NCBI RefSeq assembly: GCF_013362815.1 | Contig: NZ_JABFVK010000035.1 | Location: 1-64,000, forward strand | Length of the DNA: 64,000 nucleotides | Direction: 5' to 3' | From: Hamadaea sp. | GTDB lineage: Bacteria > Actinomycetota > Actinomycetes > Mycobacteriales > Micromonosporaceae | Shown: positions 11,437-22,462 of the stretch, one piece after another | How the letters are laid out: each line of letters opens with the position of its first letter | How positions within the stretch are numbered: the stretch's first letter is position 1 | Program-made: the position numbers and the translations under genes | The notes under the pieces: generated by a model | The model's database searches: none | Told to the model about the DNA's origin: nothing | The model's input: only the letters and a program-made list of their open reading frames with translations

Positions 11437-12813
11437 TCACCGGCGGGCTGACGCTCGCCGGTCAGAGCCGTCCCTCGGCAAGGCATTGATAACCGGGCCT
11501 CGTGCTTCGGGGTCCCGGGTCTGGGCGTCATGCTGCTCGCCCCAGACAGCGAGGTTCGCCGCGGCGTTCAGATCCCGATCCGCCACATGGCCACAGGCGG
11601 CGCAGGTGAACATCCGCTGCGCCAGCGGCAACACTGCAAGGATCGCGCTGCACCTCGAGCAGGTTTTGCTGGAGGCGAACCACCGACCTGCGGTGATCAC
11701 CTGCCCACCCGCCCACTGCTGCTTGTAGCCGATCATCCGCGCCAGCTCCGCCCAACCCGCATCGCTGATCGACCGGGCCAGCCGCCGATTCCGGACCATG
11801 CCCGCCGTGTTCAGGTCCTCCAACACCAGCCGGTCGTGGGTTTTGACCAGCCGATTAGCAACCTCATGCAACGCATGCGCGCGAACGTCTCTGATGCGCC
11901 GGTGACAACGGGCCAGCCGCGCCACCGCTCTACTGCGATTCTTCGACCCACACCGTGCCCGTGACACCCGCCGCGACAAACGCCGCAGCCGTGGCAGACC
12001 CGTGCGCAACGGCCGCGGCGGCTCCACCCGCAGGATCTCACGACCAGTACCGTCGGCCGCGACCACCAACGCGGTCAGCCCGCGATCGACACCGACCCAA
12101 CCCCGCTGGCCGTCCTCCCGTGCCGGGTGGCGGCGGGCGGGGTGCAGATCGGCGGCCTCGACGGTGACGCTGATCGTCCACCGGCCCGCGTGCCGCGACA
12201 CCGTGACGTACCGGATGGTGGCGCGGCCGTTGCGTAGCATGCGCCGCAGGCGGCGGGTGTCCTCCCGCACCCGCACGATCCCGATCTTCGGCAAGCAGAT
12301 AGTCCGCGGACCGGCAACCGGGTCGCCGACCTGGATCGCCGCCCGACCGGCGGTGGTCTTGTTGCGGATCCGGAACGAGCCCGTCGTGGCGGTTTTGCGT
12401 TTGAAGCGGGGAAACCCCACCCGAGCACCCCGGCGCTTGCCTTTGCGGGAGTCGGCGAACGCTGTCAAGGCCCGGCCACAGTCGACCGCAGCCTCCTCGA
12501 ACACCTGCTGACAGACTTCGCCCCGCCACCGCAAACCCGTACTGTGCATGGTCGCCTGCTCAGAGGAGTCCACCACCCACACACGACCCGCCGCCGACCG
12601 CTTCCACCCATTGAACGCATTGATCAGGTCAAACCCGGTCCACGGCACCTTCACCGAACCGTCAGCAGTCTTGCCCTTCGCATCCAATGCGTCCTTGACC
12701 ATCGCCAGACACTGGTTGAACGCAAACCGCGCCGCACCTGCATGGCGCCCCAACACCACCAGCTGCGATGGTGAAGCATCGGCGGTGAACCGGAACGCCG
12801 CGAACCTAGCCAC
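11437..12813 (-). CDS. tnpB: RNA-guided endonuclease TnpB (IS200/IS605-IS607 accessory protein)
   Basis: 458 aa, GTG start, apparently intact. N-terminal OrfB helix-turn-helix region about 1-130. The RuvC-like nuclease has Asp in GVDRGLTAL, Glu in VLEDLNTAGM, a zinc ribbon CSRC...CAACG and the final Asp in DRDLNAAANLA. All three catalytic acids and four zinc cysteines are present. It should cut DNA next to a target-adjacent motif under guidance of the RNA from its 3' end, helping retain the element. The C-terminal tail (about 30 aa, Arg-rich) extends past the zinc ribbon. Confidence 0.93.
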   Translation of the reverse strand: MARFAAFRFTADASPSQLVVLGRHAGAARFAFNQCLAMVKDALDAKGKTADGSVKVPWTGFDLINAFNGWKRSAAGRVWVVDSSEQATMHSTGLRWRGEVCQQVFEEAAVDCGRALTAFADSRKGKRRGARVGFPRFKRKTATTGSFRIRNKTTAGRAAIQVGDPVAGPRTICLPKIGIVRVREDTRRLRRMLRNGRATIRYVTVSRHAGRWTISVTVEAADLHPARRHPAREDGQRGWVGVDRGLTALVVAADGTGREILRVEPPRPLRTGLPRLRRLSRRVSRARCGSKNRSRAVARLARCHRRIRDVRAHALHEVANRLVKTHDRLVLEDLNTAGMVRNRRLARSISDAGWAELARMIGYKQQWAGGQVITAGRWFASSKTCSRCSAILAVLPLAQRMFTCAACGHVADRDLNAAANLAVWGEQHDAQTRDPEARGPVINALPRDGSDRRASARR

Positions 12814-12898: not shown

Positions 12899-13012
12899 TG
12901 TCCGGCTCCAAGCTGATGCCGTTCACCTGACCACCACCGGTGATTCACCCGCCGTTTGCCGTACGGCCACCGGGCGGGTCTGATCCGGACCGGAAAGAGA
13001 TGGTACTGCGTC

Positions 13013-13969
13013 ATGCGACTGCGCCTTGGCCGCAAAAAGCCTCCCGACCAGGTCGAACCGCCGGCGATCGAAGATGGGTCGACCTCGGCGGACGACAACG
13101 ACCACGCTGGTCACGCGTTGCGCGCCCCGAGCGCGCTGCACGCCTTCAACCGTTACGAGATCAAGTACCTCGTGCCGAGCGTCAAGCTGCCGGAACTGCG
13201 GCGTGAACTGCAGGCCCGGCTCGATGACGACGACAACGGCGTCGGCGGGTCGTACGGGGTGTGGAGCGTCTACTACGACACCCGGCATCTGCGTTTCTAT
13301 TGGGAGAAGATCGAAGGTTTGCGGTTCCGGCGGAAATTGCGGATCCGTCACTACGGTGACCGGTCCACAGTCGGCGACGACACCACCGTTTACGTCGAGA
13401 TCAAGCAGCGCGTCAACCGGGTGACCCAGAAACGGCGCATCGCCCTGCCGTACGGGCAGGCCCGGGAACTGTGCGATCTCCGGCGGCAGATCGACCACCT
13501 GCCTGCCCAGGCCGGCTTCGTCAACGAAGTCCTGGGCCTGGTCTCCGGATTCGATCTGCGGCCGACCGCCACCACCGGTTATCAGCGGGAGGCGTACGTC
13601 GGGCGCGACGCCGACCTCGGCCTGCGAGTGACCCTCGACCACCGCGTACGCGGCCGGGACCGGGACTTCGACCTGGCCGCCGACAGCGAGAACCGGCTGA
13701 TCATTCCGGCGTCGTTGTCGGTGCTGGAGTTCAAGGCGAACGACCGCGTCCCGTATTGGCTGACCGATTTGGCCGCAGCGCTGGACCTGTCGATCGTCCG
13801 CGTCTCGAAGTACTGCCAGAGCATCGAGGCATTCGGCCAGGCGCCCCGCTCGATCTTCCACATCCCCGACGACCCCGCCATCCCCGACGCTGCCGTCGAC
13901 CCCGACGACGCAGCTATCTCCGACGACCCCGCCGTGGCGAGCGCTGCGGCCGCAACCGTGAAGGCATGA
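13013..13969 (+). CDS. VTC-domain (polyphosphate polymerase-like) protein
   Basis: 318 aa from the ATG at 13013 (GGAAAGAGA upstream); an in-frame upstream ATG at 12956 has no ribosome site. The domain, about 45-270, shows the triphosphate-tunnel pattern of paired basic and acidic strands: FNRYEIKYLV, SVYYDT, FRRKLRIRHYG, VYVEIKQR, TQKRRI, LEFKAN. Eukaryotic VTC domains make polyphosphate from ATP; bacterial members sit with DUF4956 and CotH as here. A Pro/Asp/Ala-rich tail (about 280-318) follows. No membrane helix of its own. It overlaps the next gene by ATGA. Confidence 0.88.
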   Translation: MRLRLGRKKPPDQVEPPAIEDGSTSADDNDHAGHALRAPSALHAFNRYEIKYLVPSVKLPELRRELQARLDDDDNGVGGSYGVWSVYYDTRHLRFYWEKIEGLRFRRKLRIRHYGDRSTVGDDTTVYVEIKQRVNRVTQKRRIALPYGQARELCDLRRQIDHLPAQAGFVNEVLGLVSGFDLRPTATTGYQREAYVGRDADLGLRVTLDHRVRGRDRDFDLAADSENRLIIPASLSVLEFKANDRVPYWLTDLAAALDLSIVRVSKYCQSIEAFGQAPRSIFHIPDDPAIPDAAVDPDDAAISDDPAVASAAAATVKA

Positions 13970-14649
13970 CCGTGAACTTCGAACTGCAAGACCTCACCGG
14001 CACGTTCAGTGTCACCGACATCGTCGTCGCCCTGATCCTGTCGTTCGTGCTCAGCGCGATCATCGGCTGGGTCTACCGGGCGACGCACCGCAATGTGTCC
14101 TACAGCCAGTCGTTCGTGCAGACCCTGGTCATCCTGGGCATGCTCATCTCGTTGATCATGCTCGTCGTCGGCTCGAACATCGCCCGAGCGTTCGCCCTCG
14201 TCGGAGCGCTGTCGGTGGTCCGGTTCCGCAACGCGATCAAGGAGACCCGCGACGTGGGGTTCATCTTCCTCGTCATGGGCGTCGGCATGGCGACCGGTAC
14301 GCGGTTCTACGTGTTGGCGATGGTCGCGACGGCGGCCATCTGCTTGGTGATCATAGTCATGCACCGGTTCAGCTGGTTCCGGCTGTCGGTCCAGCGTCAG
14401 GTCGTCAAGGTGCAGGTGCCGCCCGAGGGCGACTACACCGCCGCCATCCAGGATGTGCTGATCCGGCATACCACGGAGTTCGAACTGGTCAGCATGGAGT
14501 CCATCCGGGGCGGCGCGCTCACCGAGTTGATGTACACGGTGCGGCTCAAGAAGGGTGGGGAGCCGAGTGACCTGATCGTCGCGCTCGGCCAGGTCACCTC
14601 CGGGCAACGGGTCACCGTGCTGACCGGGTACGACCAGACGGACCTGTGA
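13966..14649 (+). CDS. DUF4956 membrane protein
   Basis: 227 aa. Four membrane helices lie between about 18 and 140 (VTDIVVALILSFVLSAIIG; VQTLVILGMLISLIML; VGFIFLVMGVGMATG; VLAMVATAAICLVIIVM), with the conserved GALSVVRFRNAIKETRD loop between the second and third. The C-terminal 90 residues are soluble, with an ACT-like or ferredoxin-like look. Function unknown in the family. The start overlaps the VTC gene and the stop overlaps the CotH gene, so the three products are probably made together and may form one membrane complex. Confidence 0.9.
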   Translation: MTVNFELQDLTGTFSVTDIVVALILSFVLSAIIGWVYRATHRNVSYSQSFVQTLVILGMLISLIMLVVGSNIARAFALVGALSVVRFRNAIKETRDVGFIFLVMGVGMATGTRFYVLAMVATAAICLVIIVMHRFSWFRLSVQRQVVKVQVPPEGDYTAAIQDVLIRHTTEFELVSMESIRGGALTELMYTVRLKKGGEPSDLIVALGQVTSGQRVTVLTGYDQTDL

Positions 14650-16331
14650 TGGCCGACGAAAGCCTTACGGCCGACGAAGGTGTTGTGGCCGGCGAATCTG
14701 TCACGGCCGGTGCGCGAGCGCCGGCCCCTCGCCTCAAGCACCGTATCCCGGTGCGGGTACGCCACTACTGGAAGCTGCTCGCCGTCTGCGGGCTCAGCCT
14801 GGTGGCGCTGGTCGTGCTCGCGGGCAACGTCGAGATCCGGCCTATCGTCACCAGCGGCGGCGCCGGCAAGTCCGACGACGTCGTGGAGAACGTCGCAGGC
14901 ACCGTGGACCTGTTCGACGCGACCATCGCTCACACCATCACGCTCAGCTATGGCGAGGCCGAGTACCAGCGGATGATGGACGAGTTCATCGCGACGGGGG
15001 AGAAGGAGTACCTGCGCGCCGACCTCACCATCGACGGCACCGTCGTGGAGGACGTCGGCATCCGCCTCAAGGGCAACTCGACGCTGTCCGGTCTGACGCA
15101 CAAGGGCAAGACACGATCGTTGTTCGGCGAGGACAACGGCGGTGGACCGGGCGGGGGCCGCCCCGGTGGCGGCTTCCCGGGCGGCGGGCAGATCCCCGGA
15201 GGTGGCCAGATGCCGGGTGATGGGCAGATGCCGGGCGGTGGCCAGATGCCTGGCGGCGGGCAGATGGCGGACGGCCTTCCCGGCGGCGGTATGGGCACGG
15301 TCTCGCTCGACAGCAGCCGTCCCGAAGAACTTCCCTGGCTCATCAGCTTCGACGAGTTCGCCGACGGCCGCCGCTATCAGGGCCATCGGCAAGTCGCCCT
15401 GCGAATCTCGGGCATGGGCGGCGGCAGCACGGTCCTCAACGAAGCCGTGTCACTCGCCCTCATCGGCAAGACCAGCGAACCCGCTCAGCAGTACGCGTAC
15501 TCCGGGCTCCGGGTCAACGGGCGACCGGTCAGAACCAGGCTGCTCGTCGAGACGCCGGACGCCGGGTTCGCCGAGAGCCTTGGCGATGGAGTGCTGTACA
15601 AGACGTTGAGCACCGGGCAGTTCACCTACCAAGGCGAGGACCAGACCGACTACACCGAGGACTTCAAGCAGATCAACAACAAGGGCAGCTACGATCTGCA
15701 ACCGGTCATCGACCTTGTGAAATGGGTCGAGCAGTCGTCCGACGCCGACTTCGCAGCGCACCTCGCCGACCATGTCGACGTCACCGCGTTCGCCAAGTAC
15801 CTGGCCCTGCAGAACCTGCTGCTCAACTTCGACGACATGGCCGGGCCCGGTCGCAACCTGTATCTCTGGTACGACCTGAGCACCAAGAAGTTCCGGATCG
15901 TCGGCTGGGACTACAACCTGACCTTCAGCGGTAGCGCCACTCAGGGCCCGCACGACTCCACCTCCATGGGTGGCCGGTTCGGCGGCGGCATGCAACTGCC
16001 GGATGGCGTCAAGCTCCCCGAGGGATTCACTCCGCCGCAGCAGGCCGGGGGCGATCCCGGCGGCGGCTTCAGCATGGGCGGCAACAAGCTCAAGGAACGG
16101 TTCCTCGCCGCCGACGCCTTCAAACAGATCTACGACGACGCGTACCGCGAGCTGTATCGGAATTTGTTCGGCAACGGCGCCGCAGAACAGGCGCTTAACA
16201 CGATCACCACCACCCTGTCGAAGGTGGACGGATACGACGCCGCCGCGGTGAAGTCCGACGCCGACAAACTGCGCTCGACCATCCAGCAGCGTACGACCGC
16301 ACTGGCCAAGGACGCCGTCGTCACCGGCTGA
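14649..16331 (+). CDS. CotH-family secreted/membrane protein kinase-like protein
   Basis: 560 aa, ATG overlapping the upstream stop (TGATG). Residues about 45-62 are a membrane anchor, and the rest is outside. CotH kinase motifs are visible: LKGNST, a region ending QNLLLNFDD, YLWYDLSTKKFRIVGWDYN (metal-binding Asp). CotH proteins are atypical kinases that phosphorylate secreted proteins, first known from Bacillus spore coats. Two Gly-rich inserts are unusual: a GGGQMP-type tandem repeat at about 160-215 and a Gly/Met-rich stretch at about 438-480. Last gene of the VTC/DUF4956/CotH operon. Confidence 0.88.
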   Translation: MADESLTADEGVVAGESVTAGARAPAPRLKHRIPVRVRHYWKLLAVCGLSLVALVVLAGNVEIRPIVTSGGAGKSDDVVENVAGTVDLFDATIAHTITLSYGEAEYQRMMDEFIATGEKEYLRADLTIDGTVVEDVGIRLKGNSTLSGLTHKGKTRSLFGEDNGGGPGGGRPGGGFPGGGQIPGGGQMPGDGQMPGGGQMPGGGQMADGLPGGGMGTVSLDSSRPEELPWLISFDEFADGRRYQGHRQVALRISGMGGGSTVLNEAVSLALIGKTSEPAQQYAYSGLRVNGRPVRTRLLVETPDAGFAESLGDGVLYKTLSTGQFTYQGEDQTDYTEDFKQINNKGSYDLQPVIDLVKWVEQSSDADFAAHLADHVDVTAFAKYLALQNLLLNFDDMAGPGRNLYLWYDLSTKKFRIVGWDYNLTFSGSATQGPHDSTSMGGRFGGGMQLPDGVKLPEGFTPPQQAGGDPGGGFSMGGNKLKERFLAADAFKQIYDDAYRELYRNLFGNGAAEQALNTITTTLSKVDGYDAAAVKSDADKLRSTIQQRTTALAKDAVVTG

Positions 16332-16456: not shown

Positions 16457-17623
16457 TCAGCGTTGCAGCGTCAGCAGACCGGGCCGATAGGGCAGCAGGC
16501 CGTAGTCGATACCGTCGGAGTTCGGGTTCCGGCCCTGGTACAGCAGTTGAAGGTGGCAGGCGTCGATGGTCATGGTCTGGTCGGCGTTAGCCCGGACCAG
16601 GTCGCCGTGGCTGATGTCGTTGGTCCAGGTGGCGCCGCTGTTGGCCTTGCCGGCGAAGGGGTTGCTCTCGGTGGCGGCCTGTGGTGTCCACGATCCGCCC
16701 AGGCTGGTGGCGGTGAACGAGCGGAAGTAGCGCCCGTGGGTTCCCATCGCCTCGACGATCATGAGGTACTGCTGCCGGCCCTGGACCCGGTAAACCTGAG
16801 GCGCTTCGAACAGGTTGCTTCTCGTATCGCTCATGATCGTGGTGTAGGTGGCGCCGAAGGTACCCGGGAAGTTGCCGATGGGCATGCCGGCGCGGTAGAT
16901 CTTGCCGTTGTCCCCGGCGAAGAACAGGTACATTTTCGACGAATCGCCGATGATCGTCTGGTCGATCGGGCCGGAGTCGGAGCCGGCGATGGTTCCGGAA
17001 AACAGCGGCTGTGGCGACGACCATCCGTTCGGATTGGTGGGATCGCTGGAAGTCCGGTAGGAGAAGGCCTTCGCACCCCACTGGTAGGTGAGTACCCAGA
17101 TCTTCTTCGGGGCGAAGTAGAACAAGGTGGGTGCGACCGTGCCGTACGGCACGGCTTTCTGGCTGGCTGAGCCCATATTGGACCAGCTGGTGAATGGACT
17201 GAAGGCCATCGAGCTCCAGGCGCTACCGCCGTCGTGGGTCGTGGCGTAGACGAGATGCTTTCCGTTGTAAGGCACGGTCGTGAAGTCTTTGAGGGATACC
17301 CAACCTGACTTCGGGGTCGCCAGCGGACCCGTCGATGTCCACCGGTACCGCGACGGAAGTGCGCACGTGACTGCATTCGATTTGGCCGGAACGCCGCCGG
17401 AGGGTTGGTGCGTGGGGACGCTCGACGGCGACGCGCTGGTGGCCGCCGAGGGTGACGACGGCGTGGGGCTCGCGGCGGCCACGTCTGGCGGCTGCGCACT
17501 TCGGGTTACGTCGGCCTGCTCCGCCGGCCCGGCAGCGCAACCGGCGGCGGCCCAGAACATGGCTGCTACGACGGCGATTGCAAATCCAGACCGCCGGCGA
17601 AGGCGCAGCTGCGACGGCGACAT
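16457..17623 (-). CDS. GH62 alpha-L-arabinofuranosidase, lipoprotein
   Basis: 388 aa. A lipobox (AAGC at about 26-29) replaces a free signal peptide, so the enzyme should be tethered to the outer face of the membrane. A Ser/Pro/Thr linker runs to about 75. The GH62 five-bladed propeller follows: [29 protein letters not shown] (catalytic Asp), [16 protein letters not shown] (catalytic Glu), [10 protein letters not shown]62 enzymes remove single arabinose side chains from xylan. It lies next to a GH11 xylanase on the same strand, a natural pair for arabinoxylan. The start has no strong ribosome site. Confidence 0.93.
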
Positions 17624-17672: not shown

Positions 17673-18686
17673 CTAGCGCCGATGCGACTCGAAGCTCGCC
17701 CGGCGTCTCGCCGCCGATCGGCGACGCCTCATCAGCGTCCCGGTGATAGCGCCGGCGGCCAGGAGTGCCGCGGTGCCGACAAGCCACACGGCGCCATGAC
17801 CGCCGAGGGATGCCCGCTCGGGGGAGTGTGCGTCAGCCACGGCTGGAATCGACGACGTTGACGGCGAGAGCAGGTCCGTCGATGGCGACGGTGAGCCAGA
17901 CGCCGCTCGAGCGGAGGCCGACCTTCGCGGCGTCGGTGTGGCCACGGGCGACGGCGAGGCGGTGGCCGGGCGGGGGCTCTGCGGTGCCGCTGAGCCGCCG
18001 ACCGTGATGGTGGAGTTTCCGCTGCTGTGGTACCCCTCGGTGGCCAGGATCATGTAGTTGAAGCGGCCCAGTTTCAGTCCGTAGCGCGCCCAGGCGTCGA
18101 AGTGGTTGCCGGTCGTTATTGTGCCGCCGGTCTTCTTCGACCTGCGAACGCTCCAGTACTGCGGGAACGTAGCGGTGCCGACAATGGATGGGGCGTCGTA
18201 TCGCATCGTCTGGTAGACGTCGTAGGTTCCGCCGTCGCTGGTGACAGTGCCTTTGAAGGTTCCCGTCGGCCGGTAGGTGCCCCAGTTGTCGACGATGTAG
18301 TACTCGACGAGGGGGTCGGTCGTCCATCCGTAAAGGGTGAGGTACGCGTTGCCGGAGGGATTGAAGCTGCCGGAGTAGCGCACGCTTTTGCGGCCCCCGG
18401 TGCTCCAGCCTTTACCGGCGACGAAGTTGCCGACATCGCTCCATGAAGTGCGGTAGTTGCCATCGGGGCCGAGTGTCATCGAGACGGAACCGGCGCGGTC
18501 GGACCAGAACGAGTAGTGGTATCCATCGTCGGTGCCGGCCTGGTAGCCGGTCTGACGGGAGGTGATGGTCGTGTCGGCGTAGGCGGCGCCAGGCAGAATG
18601 ATCACTGCCGTGAGCACCGCCGCGAAGCAAGCGCTGCGGCGGAGTAGCCAGGCGCGGCTCTTCGGATGGACAGGTGAGTTGGTCAT
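17673..18686 (-). CDS. GH11 endo-1,4-beta-xylanase with C-terminal membrane anchor
   Basis: 337 aa from the ATG at 18686, 14 bases after the upstream stop; a signal peptide (about 1-40) then starts correctly. The GH11 jelly roll is complete (about 42-245): nucleophile Glu in [11 protein letters not shown] and acid/base Glu in [10 protein letters not shown] Ser/Pro/Ala linker of about 60 residues follows, then a hydrophobic helix ([20 protein letters not shown]) and an Arg-rich tail [10 protein letters not shown]. No LPXTG is seen, so it should be held by the helix itself rather than by sortase. It is downstream of the sigma-fusion gene and may share its transcript. Confidence 0.93.
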
Positions 18687-18700
18687 CACGTTCCACGTTG

Positions 18701-20464
18701 TCAGGGTTGCTGGAAGTTGCGAGTGGTCCATATCCGCTGGGACAGGTACTCCTTGACCCGTTTGACGTATTGCTCCGCAGCGTCGGTGTGCCACCGACCG
18801 GCGAACCACACGCCCAAACAGCCCCACGCGTCACCGGCCTTGTACTGCGAACCCCTGTCGACAGTGTTGAGCCAGGTCATCTTGCCCTCGTAGCAGGACC
18901 GCCAGACCGCGTACGCGTAGTCGGCGTTCATGGCCGTGGACTTTTCAACGCCCGGGAACGCCTGCATGTTGTACGGATACCGGACCTGCATAATGCCGTA
19001 GCTCTCAGGGCATTTGCCGGGGGCGCCGTCCTCCCCGAGCCCGTGCCCGGCTGGACAGCGCGACGCGTCGGTGCCGTAGTCGCCCTTGTTGTCCATGTGC
19101 CACCAGCTTTCGATGGCGGCCTGTGCCTTGACCATGTCTTCGTCGATGCCCCACTTGCAGGCAGCCCAGCGCAGGATCTGCTCGGTGGTACCGGTGAACT
19201 TGCCGTCGACGCGGGTTAGCGGCGCAGTCGCGCCCGGCACGGTGTGCCCGGTGGTCCGGTTGGCAGTGGCGTTGACCGCCTTGTTCTCGCGGATCGGTTT
19301 TGCGCGGACGGCGGTGGCGCACTGCGCGCCCGATGGCAGCTTTGCGCCGGGCGGCAGCAATCCGAACCGGGACACGCTGGGTTTAGGGCTGGCGTCCGAC
19401 GGCGATGGTGACGTAGACATGCTCGCGGTGACAGCCGGTTGCATCGACTCCGTACCGGCAGCGGCTGTGGGCTCTTTAGGCGACGGCTCGTCGAACGCGC
19501 CCCAACCGTTGGCAGCGACGACACCGATGCCGAGCACCACGACGGCAGCCGCGGCCGCGATCGCCGGTTTCGCCGACAGCACTGATCCGGCCTTGGCAAA
19601 CCAGCCACCTGAATTTCCGCTACCGGCGTGCGCGCGCCCGCCGACGCTTGCTCGCAGCTCCGGCAGGGCGAGCCCGACCGGCAGGGGGACCAGAGCCAGT
19701 CCGACAAGCAGGCGGTCGGCCGGCACAAGATCGCTCCAGCGGTAAGCACACCTGTCGCACTCGCGCGTGTGGCGGGCGAATCGCTTGCGCCACAAGGGCG
19801 AAGGCAGGCCGTTCCAGTCGCGGGCCAGCGAGGCGAGCTGGGCGCAGCGCGGTGAGGCCCGCAGCGCCCGCACGATCACGCGGGCCGCGTCCAACTGTTC
19901 CCTCATCCGCCGAACCCGGTCGGCCACTTGTTGCGACGTCAGCTCCAGCGCATCCGCCAGCTCCGAGCGGGTCAGCTCACCGGCGGCTTCAAGCCACCAC
20001 AGCGACAGCAGATTACGGTCGCCCTCGTCCAGCCACCGGGTCGCCTCGGCTACCTCCAGCCGTTGCCCCTGCAAGCCGAGTTTGGCGATGGTCAGGTCCA
20101 CGAAGTCGGCCGCGGGATCGGCGAGGTCTGGGTCCAGCTCGGTGGGCGACGCCAAGCGGTTACCGGTCCGCCATCGCCCGCGTACCTGCTGGATCGCGAT
20201 CGCGACCAGCCACGGCCGGAACCGTTCCGGGTCGCGTAGGCCCGGCAGCCCACGAACGGCATGCAGCATGGTCTCCTGCACGACGTCGTCGACGTCGGCG
20301 TGCCCGTCCATCGAGCGGCCGACGATGTTGTACACCAGCGGCAGGCATGACGCCACGAGCCCGTCCAGCGCCGCCTGGTTTCCGCGCATCGCCGCGGTCA
20401 CCGTCGCCGGATCGAATCTCACGTCTTGGTACACCTGGCTCGACCTTTCACCTGCCGTCGGCAT
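18701..20464 (-). CDS. ECF sigma factor fused to zinc-finger, membrane helix and transglycosylase-like domain
   Basis: 587 aa from the ATG at 20464; a GTG at 20434 with AAAGG upstream is an alternative. Order: sigma region 2 about 30-100 ([29 protein letters not shown]), sigma region 4 about 148-200 ([20 protein letters not shown]), an anti-sigma-like zinc motif His232-x3-Cys236-x2-Cys239, one membrane helix about 300-319, a Ser/Pro linker to about 370, and an exported lysozyme/SLT-like domain about 425-575 with Glu452 in AAIESWW and SYGIMQV. The N-terminus should be cytoplasmic and the enzyme domain outside. One polypeptide thus joins transcription factor, inhibitor-like element and envelope enzyme. 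An 81-bp block at its start recurs before the divergent lipoprotein. Confidence 0.9.
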
Positions 20465-20546: not shown

Positions 20547-21033
20547 TCGGCTGGGAACGGCGGGATACCGGTGCATGCCGCCGCTGCCGACGGCAGCTCC
20601 TGCACGGGCGCCTATCGGCAGGTCAACGCATACTTGTCACGGCGTGAGCGGGTCGCAGCGGAAGCGGTCCAGAGGTTCCGTGAGCCGGGGGGCAGGTCGA
20701 GCGGTGCCGTAGTGGGCTTGCCTCGAATCTTCCTGTTACATCTTGACGAAGGTCACTTTTAGCGCTCACTGTTCACCTTGCGCGTTCAAACCCACGATCG
20801 GTGGGCTGCGCATCGGCGTCCCTCCCCACCATCCGTCCCCGAATTGCCACCGGGAAAATGTGAACGCTAACACGCCGCTTGCCTGCACCGATACCCGCGC
20901 GAAGGCTCGCCGGCTTACAGCGGGCCTCTCGGCTTCACGATCGCGAGAAAAGGTGGGTTCCGTCGCAAGACCGAGCCTGCCCGCCGCAACATCGCGCGAC
21001 GCAGAACCCTGGCCGGCCCGCCATCCGTCCGGG
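20547..21033. promoter_or_regulatory. Divergent intergenic region with two LacI-like operator candidates
   Basis: No supported gene in about 490 bp. Two related sites are seen: TTTTAGCGCTCACT at 20757-20770 and TGTGAACGCTAACA at 20859-20872. The second, reverse complemented (TGTTAGCGTTCACA), matches 13 of 14 bases of the site upstream of the GH54 gene (32675-32688). They lie 290-400 bp upstream of the lipoprotein start, far for a simple repressor site. Confidence 0.4.
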
Positions 21034-21114
21034 CCGGAAACTCCGCACCGTCAATTTCCACGATTTCTGCCATGTCACTACCGCATACGCATCTCCTTAA
21101 TCAGAGTCCGGCGA
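21034..21114 (+). promoter_or_regulatory. 81-bp conserved promoter block, copy B (lipoprotein gene)
   Basis: Second copy of the block described at 20466-20546, here reading towards the lipoprotein gene and ending 43 bp before its ATG. Conserved cores: CCGGAAA, the 16-bp CCACGATTTCTGCCAT, CATCTCCT, CAGAG and CCGGCGA. The spacing leaves room for a transcript start and the AGGAG ribosome site at 21144-21148. Confidence 0.65.
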
Positions 21115-21157: not shown

Positions 21158-22462
21158 ATGCGATCCATCGGGTGCCGCCCCCGGCGGCCAGCGTTCACGA
21201 GCGCCATCGCGGCAGCCATGCTCGCGGCCGTGACCGCTTGCGGCGGGCCGTCCGATACCGCTCCGGCCGCCAGCACGCAGGAGAGCCTCGCGGACGCGAC
21301 GACGTCCCCGACCGAACTGGCTTCGCCCAACTCCTCGGTCTCAGCGTCCCCGTCGGCTCGCGCGAGCGCCACGTCCGGTGGCTCGACCAAGCGGTTCCTG
21401 GGCAGCAGCACGGTGCTCATCGGCGGCTCGATGTCCGACGAATCCGCCAGCGCGGCGCCGTTCGATCTGCGGTACGCCTACATACACAGCCAGCCCGCCC
21501 CGTCGTCGGCCTACTATTCGGCATCGCGTTGCCAGGCCGGGTGGTCGGGCTGGTGGGGTTGCTGGACCGGCCCCACCACCGCGCCTGGCACCCAGGTGAC
21601 CGTCTACAAAAGCATGGCGGCCAACGCTACCTACCAGGGCCGCCCGCGCCCGCAGAAGTTCTTCTTCACCTGGTACTCATTGCGCGACCTTGGGGATGCG
21701 GCAGGCGAGGGCGACGGACCGGGCGAGGTCAAGGCCATCAACCGGCTTGACCTGCTCACGCGGTATCTGAACGACTACCGGTTCTTCCTGAAGAAGATCG
21801 GCAAGTCGCCCGACGCGATCGACCTCGAGCCCGACTTCTGGGGATTCGCACGATCGCTCGGCAACCTGCACAAAGTCCCGGCGCAGGTCTCGGGCGCGAA
21901 TCCGACCGACTGTGGGTCACACGAAAACAGCGCCGCCGGACTCGCCCGCTGCCTGATCGCAATGACGCGCAAATACGCGCCGAACGCCGCGGTGGGCCTG
22001 CATCTGTCCTGCTTCGACTGGGAGTCGAACCCAGACAAATGCATCAAAGATTACGCGGATCTTGGCGCAGGCAACGGCGACTTCCTGGTCAGCGATGTGT
22101 CGGACCGCGATGCGGGCTGGTACGCACAGCCGGCCCACGGCGGCTACGACAAATTCTGGAACGATCAGAAGGCCGCTGCCGCGCTGCGGTTCTACAAGAC
22201 GATGGCCGAAGCCGTCGGTAAGCCGGTGGTCTTGTGGCAGATTCCGGTCGGCAACATGGTGCAGAACAACACTCCCAACCACTACAAGGACGACAAGGTC
22301 GATTGGTTTTTCCGGCACATGGATCAGGTGGCCAGGGCGCATGTCGCTGCCCTGCTGTTCGGTGCCGGATGGACGGAACAGACGACGCCCGAGACCGATG
22401 GCGGAAACCTGATCCGCAAGACGATCGCCTACCGCAAATCGGGCGGTGTGCTGCTCAAGTAG
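21158..22462 (+). CDS. Secreted TIM-barrel-like lipoprotein, possible glycoside hydrolase
   Basis: 434 aa, ATG with AGGAG upstream. Lipobox VTAC at about 25-28, then a Ser/Thr/Pro linker to about 75. The mature domain looks like a beta/alpha barrel with repeated hydrophobic strands ending in acidic or polar residues: FFFTWYS, DAIDLEPDFWGF, VGLHLSCFDW, DFLVSDVSDRD, PVVLWQIPVGN, ALLFGAGWTE. The acidic pair in IDLEPD is a candidate catalytic site. I do not recognise a named family. It shares the 81-bp promoter block with the divergent sigma/transglycosylase fusion, so a role in wall or polysaccharide processing is plausible but inferred. Confidence 0.8.
   Translation: MRSIGCRPRRPAFTSAIAAAMLAAVTACGGPSDTAPAASTQESLADATTSPTELASPNSSVSASPSARASATSGGSTKRFLGSSTVLIGGSMSDESASAAPFDLRYAYIHSQPAPSSAYYSASRCQAGWSGWWGCWTGPTTAPGTQVTVYKSMAANATYQGRPRPQKFFFTWYSLRDLGDAAGEGDGPGEVKAINRLDLLTRYLNDYRFFLKKIGKSPDAIDLEPDFWGFARSLGNLHKVPAQVSGANPTDCGSHENSAAGLARCLIAMTRKYAPNAAVGLHLSCFDWESNPDKCIKDYADLGAGNGDFLVSDVSDRDAGWYAQPAHGGYDKFWNDQKAAAALRFYKTMAEAVGKPVVLWQIPVGNMVQNNTPNHYKDDKVDWFFRHMDQVARAHVAALLFGAGWTEQTTPETDGGNLIRKTIAYRKSGGVLLK

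Follow-up and report, generated by a model that had tools for sequence, protein, structure and literature searches.

What does a sigma factor sense when its own chain continues through the membrane and ends in a lysozyme-like domain? The question is raised by the gene at 18701-20464 of the window, that is, of the whole 64,000-nucleotide stretch of Hamadaea sp. DNA analysed here. A first-pass annotation had proposed a sensor of the state of the cell's own wall, and we followed this proposal through the protein, its neighbour genes, the DNA upstream of it and its relatives in other genomes.

Architecture of the one-chain protein

The gene and the parts of its product are located in the window as follows.

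18701..20464, minus strand: one-chain protein of 587 aa (ECF sigma, zinc anti-sigma, membrane helix, lysozyme fold), with its ATG at 20464
20159..20359, minus strand: sigma region 2, residues 36-102 (Pfam Sigma70_r2)
19880..20032, minus strand: sigma region 4 helix-turn-helix, residues 145-195 (TIGR02937 over 32-191; generic helix-turn-helix matches over 145-190)
19748..19846, minus strand: class I zinc anti-sigma motif C207-x24-H232-x3-C236-x2-C239 (residue spacing and family conservation)
19508..19564, minus strand: single membrane helix, about residues 300-319
19367..19489, minus strand: extracellular linker rich in Pro, Ser, Thr and Ala (68% P+S+T+A), in near-neutral evolution
18704..19366, minus strand: exported lysozyme/GH23-fold domain, residues 367-587 (AlphaFold2 model; six Cys; Glu452 at the catalytic position)

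Domain searches bore out the first-pass reading of sigma regions 2 and 4 in one frame, with matches to Sigma70_r2 at E=2.3e-12 and to TIGR02937 (sigma70-ECF, residues 32-191) at E=9.3e-16. The protein has these two regions and nothing else of sigma-70, as in ECF sigma factors. The annotated His-x3-Cys-x2-Cys motif proved to be part of a longer arrangement: the stretch HTRECDRC (H232-x3-C236-x2-C239) is preceded by C207, an upstream zinc ligand that completes the C-x24-H-x3-C-x2-C signature, and the four residues C207, H232, C236 and C239 are invariant among 16 aligned family heads. Zinc-type anti-sigma domains of class I are identified by the Hx3Cx2C signature (PMC7406223). The zf-HC2 profile matches five of the 16 family members (best 4e-4), the 587-aa protein itself not being among them, and the three best matches of a profile of the zinc region in the PDB, weak ones at E 0.07-0.3, are DdvA, RsiW and another anti-sigma chain. 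The membrane helix was likewise recovered, as a single strong hydrophobic segment at about residues 300-318 (hydropathy 2.41). A full-length AlphaFold model of the fusion, built from three sequences, reached a pLDDT of 37. By its sequence, the protein is a predicted sigma factor that is anchored in the membrane and brings its own class I zinc anti-sigma motif.

Two genes joined by assembly, the case that would have undone this reading, is not what we found. The frame (minus strand) is open throughout its 587 aa, and the same fusion is encoded in Micromonospora sp. ATCC 39149 (locus L100, 81% identical) and in Catelliglobosispora koreensis (locus L101, 73% identical), that is, in three independent assemblies. 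Comparison of the three fusions gives dN/dS values of about 0.18-0.21 for the sigma part, about 0.6-1 for the linker and 0.15-0.16 for the lysozyme domain, the part of the protein under the strongest constraint. An assembly error or frame join is ruled out because two further genera carry the same fusion, with both of its ends under purifying selection. Among 355 Micromonosporaceae genomes the fusion is intact in three and present as a fragmented copy in one. At L057:9000-10280, in another Micromonosporaceae genome, the fusion is broken into three frames and residues about 84-278 are gone.

The sigma part could also have lost its function, which would make the chain an enzyme whose cytoplasmic part is a vestige, or the frame could be a join. 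That Pfam sees region 4 weakly, as a generic helix-turn-helix, would fit such a loss. However, TIGR02937 spans both regions, the alignment to CnrH spans residues 23-193, dN/dS is about 0.2 across three genera and the family is accompanied by conserved promoter-like sites (see below), while a join is opposed by the presence of the fusion in three independent assemblies. We regard this alternative as very improbable, and take the sigma part as probably a working one.

Fold of the outer domain

No Pfam family could be assigned to residues 367-587 (Glucosaminidase stayed below the cut-off, with a best E of 0.005), and a PDB search with the sequence of the domain gave no match, so that neither search recognised it as a member of an SLT or lysozyme family. 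The structure was more informative. An AlphaFold2 model of the 221-residue domain, computed from an alignment of 75 relatives, has a pLDDT of 97.7 and a pTM of 0.93, and VIA-align matched it to MltF (Z 11.2), MltE (Z 9.6), goose-type lysozyme (Z 9.2), the GH124 cellulase of C. thermocellum (Z 8.3) and a GH23 chitinase (Z 8.2), as well as to Slt and MltC. These matches, which give the modelled domain a lysozyme fold, span domain residues 24-217. E452 (domain residue 86) is invariant in the 75 sequences and, assuming no intervening gap in alignments that start at 60/38 and 59/476, in register with MltE E64 and Pseudomonas Slt E503. The family likewise preserves the positions of the ES and GxxQ motifs and of the late Tyr. 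The lysozyme/SLT-like fold and the conserved Glu of the first-pass annotation thus stand, whereas its term 'cell-wall lytic' was inferred and not seen.

The model shares with the GH23 lytic transglycosylases (MltE, MltF, Slt) and goose-type lysozyme the fold, the position of the catalytic Glu, the ES/GxxQ motifs and the late Tyr. It differs from them in having no detectable Pfam or PDB sequence similarity, in a structural identity of about 12-18%, and in its six Cys, its attached sigma factor and its hemicellulase neighbours. The GH124 cellulase CtCel124 is structurally similar too, at 10% identity and with a Z score below those of the lytic transglycosylases, but its substrate is a plant polysaccharide and not murein. 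By its fold, the modelled domain is supported as glycan-binding and possibly glycan-cutting, with no particular glycan indicated; because the GH124 cellulase resembles the same model, the fold does not decide between murein and a plant glycan. Reading the substrate from the fold was accordingly rejected, as GH124, GH23 chitinase and lysozyme folds are indistinguishable in substrate by fold alone. Relatives of the domain are mostly secreted proteins standing alone; they come from Actinobacteria, Chloroflexi and a small number of other phyla, and some are joined to PA14, Ig-like or dockerin domains. The free-standing copies have no consistent neighbour genes and are therefore uninformative on the substrate.

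These data bear on whether the domain is a receptor or an enzyme. It may be an active, membrane-displayed enzyme, the sigma link reporting substrate by way of the products that the enzyme itself makes, or of its conformational cycling: its catalytic Glu and cleft motifs are conserved, it is the most constrained part of the chain, and its relatives are for the most part secreted on their own. On the other hand, the GH10 module of RsgI6, a functional analogue, binds its ligand and has very low activity (PMC4711584), and by this analogy the module is a fair model for the outer domain despite the conserved Glu. We hold the enzyme reading to be a real possibility, albeit on balance a doubtful one.

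Hemicellulase genes and promoter-like motifs

The genes and DNA signals around the fusion are the following.

16457..17623, minus strand: GH62 arabinofuranosidase, the next gene after the GH11 gene on the same strand (Pfam E=8.1e-151)
17673..18686, minus strand: GH11 xylanase (Pfam E=4.3e-78), starting 14 bases past the sigma stop codon
20484..20516, minus strand: candidate promoter motif TTTCTGCCATC-N15-CATCTCC, directly upstream of the sigma start codon (motif search)
20859..20872, no strand: LacI-type palindrome TGTTAGCGTTCACA (TGTTAnCGnTnACA) in the divergent region, with counterparts at L100:7313 and L101:7773
21064..21096, plus strand: second copy of the motif, facing 21158-22462 (motif search)
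21158..22462, plus strand: divergent secreted protein, predicted regulon member (from its orthologue and the motif), without a Pfam family above the cut-off

The GH11 xylanase gene is probably on the same transcript as the sigma gene. In C. koreensis the GH74-like, GH11 and GH62 genes are divergent from the sigma gene, and in Micromonospora the GH62 gene is divergent from it and the GH11 gene lies just downstream. GH11 and GH62 thus adjoin all three fusions, in three different gene orders. Since each of these genomes has only 2-3 GH11 and 2-7 GH62 matches in total, this linkage exceeds what is expected by chance; the three fused loci are of common ancestry, and it therefore counts for less than three independent events. 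The differing gene orders argue that the linkage was maintained through rearrangement. No peptidoglycan genes were seen among the immediate neighbours examined. The divergent gene also has an orthologue (78% identical) adjoining the fusion in C. koreensis; its product reads like a TIM-barrel glycosidase ('IDLEPDFWGF...VVLWQIP'). Further away in the window are genes for an OrfB_IS605/Cas12f1-like (TnpB-type) protein (11437-12813, minus strand) and, both on the plus strand and near each other, for a VTC-domain protein (12956-13969) and a CotH-kinase protein (14646-16331).

The pattern TTCTGCCA-N14..20-CATCTCC has two matches in the window, against 0.00 expected in shuffled sequence, and the 7.4 Mb genome contains exactly two copies of the motif TTTCTGCCAT-N-CATCTCC, each in the intergenic region between the sigma gene and 21158-22462. 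In Micromonospora and C. koreensis the motif is preserved ahead of the sigma gene, although the frame starts differently there, and the C. koreensis copy lies in a stretch that is unable to code in the same frame. We also scored these regions with a matrix whose training set was made up of 17 sister-protein sites and nothing else. In the 18.7 kb of the C. koreensis locus the best three distinct sites are those before GH74-GH11-GH62 (28.2 bits), before the 21158-22462 orthologue (28.2 bits) and before the sigma gene (18.2 bits). In the 64 kb window one other site outscores the two motif sites, whose 17.1 and 15.3 bits (second and third place) lie within the range of the best matches in the shuffled window, so that the argument in the window depends on the exact motif. 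At the Micromonospora locus, the search gave no motif ahead of either GH62 or GH11. The LacI-type palindrome, present in the intergenic region of all three fusion genomes, suggests a second layer of sugar control. A second, truncated copy of the start of the sigma gene lies at L203 (G280:C4, near 4001246); it has an identical 32-base motif, and a GDSL-type lipase/esterase gene comes after it.

Sister proteins share the head of the fusion (about 40-60% identical) and carry other outer ends: AbfB/CBM42-like (15), Pel9A-like beta-helix (9), GH128-like catalytic-core (8), CAP and others. The AbfB class has as neighbours GH62 (five times), GH10 (five), GH43 (four), GH54 (three) and GH11 (two), and the Pel9A (pectate-lyase-like) class has pectinesterase (seven) and pectate lyase (five), so that outer domain and adjoining enzymes correspond in these two classes; the GH128-like class shows little enzyme enrichment among its neighbours. 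Two other paralogues in the genome of the window adjoin GH5 and GH95 enzymes. A sister motif, GTTAT-N-[CG]GTC[TG][CA], has 23 matches in 794 kb, 18 of them within 1 kb upstream of sigma head genes. In each of the eight GH128-like members it points at the member's own gene; in five of the nine pectate-lyase-like members it faces a divergent gene, which in every one of the five cases encodes a pectinesterase or pectate lyase. The strict form is absent upstream of all 15 AbfB-type sigma genes and a looser form finds some sites there; the motif therefore differs by class. One sister frame, at L049:8187-12281 (minus strand), is 1364 aa long, with about 700 residues without a Pfam match preceding the sigma part, which may be a start-site artefact.

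These results bear directly on the wall-state sensor, in which the outer domain would recognise or cut the cell's own peptidoglycan and the sigma part would drive wall repair. The fold speaks for it, as the highest structural scores (Z 9-11) go to lytic transglycosylases that act on peptidoglycan and to goose-type lysozyme, and the Glu452, ES, GxxQ and late Tyr positions are kept, but lysozyme-type folds also include the non-murein GH124 and GH23 chitinase examples above. Furthermore, xylanase and arabinofuranosidase genes adjoin all three fusions and a xyloglucanase-like gene one of them, every predicted site of the conserved motif faces one of these genes, the sigma gene or the divergent gene, and the sister sensors are plant or fungal polysaccharide domains. 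We consider a wall-state sensor unlikely, and its proposal in the first-pass annotation is not upheld: of the two substrates that it had left to the outer domain, neighbours and promoter motif favour polysaccharide, namely xylan, over peptidoglycan. Because the conserved DNA signals and the neighbour genes suggest xylan-digesting enzymes as the genes that the protein would turn on, we prefer a sensor of plant fibre to one of the own wall.

Proposed role and known systems

Our preferred reading, which we think probable, is that of a single-protein transducer of a hemicellulose signal, a ligand-gated sigma factor held at the membrane. The zinc anti-sigma motif would keep the ECF sigma part of the same chain inactive at the membrane, by analogy with ECF52 and RsgI, while the exported lysozyme-fold domain would bind, and may slowly cut, a plant-wall polysaccharide, most likely (arabino)xylan. 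With the ligand in place, the chain would be cleaved within the membrane helix or close to it, or else the zinc domain would loosen, again by analogy with ECF52 and RsgI. The freed sigma part would join RNA polymerase and read TTTnTGYYATC-N15/16-CATCTCC, both before its own gene, with GH11 and GH62 downstream in a putative operon, and at the promoter of the divergent secreted protein 21158-22462. More tentatively, and with considerable reserve, we propose that a lysozyme-type fold, possibly that of a new glycoside hydrolase family, has become a hemicellulose receptor directly controlling a sigma factor in the same chain, and that the whole set of such one-chain sigma factors in the Micromonosporaceae, alike in their promoter code and with outer domains that can be exchanged, makes up a network for sensing biomass, similar to sigma-I/RsgI yet independent of it. 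If the reading of the fusion and its sisters as plant-polymer sensors is right, it would account for how large soil actinomycetes pick their plant-polymer enzymes, would provide one-gene sensors for hemicellulose or pectin, and would have a lysozyme fold serve as a receptor.

The actinobacterial ECF groups with a C-terminal membrane helix and carbohydrate domains, which the first-pass annotation had mentioned, are indeed known as ECF52/ECF53 (PMC5826349, PMC8999054, PMC10766802). They have, as here, sigma, zinc anti-sigma, membrane helix, proline-rich region and an outer carbohydrate domain in one chain, an example being SCO4117 of Streptomyces coelicolor. The 587-aa protein, likewise from an actinobacterium, resembles them in architecture. 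Release by proteolysis or by a change of shape has been proposed for the two groups (PMC5826349, PMC8999054). Members with outer enzyme or binding domains have been the subject of predictions for years, and a 2024 review names glycosyl hydrolase and carbohydrate-binding domains as predicted in some of them and as still lacking validation by experiment (PMC10766802). SCO4117 differs in that it has a carbohydrate-binding module, affects development and antibiotics, and has a proposed promoter consensus of CSGYN-17-SRHA. The architecture class is hence known, and what is new is the lysozyme-fold sensor, the matching of sensors and enzymes, and the candidate promoter: in open-licence papers we found no description of a lysozyme-fold sensor, a hemicellulase regulon, a class-wise match of sensor and enzyme or this promoter motif, parts of which the primary ECF classification papers may contain. 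The fusion and its sisters offer cheap tests of ECF52/ECF53 outer domains, through a candidate promoter, target genes and a ligand class for each type of sensor.

Sigma-I/RsgI of Clostridium thermocellum consists of a separate sigma factor and an RsgI_N anti-sigma protein, of unrelated families and with no zinc motif named, whereas the fusion is one actinomycete chain, and we claim no homology between them. The likeness lies with the sister set, as both are paralogous sigma systems with swapped outer polysaccharide modules. In sigma-I/RsgI, where signalling uses intramembrane proteolysis (PMC12203970), the outer modules CBM3, CBM42, PA14 and GH10 are matched to xylan, cellulose or pectin regulons (PMC4711584).
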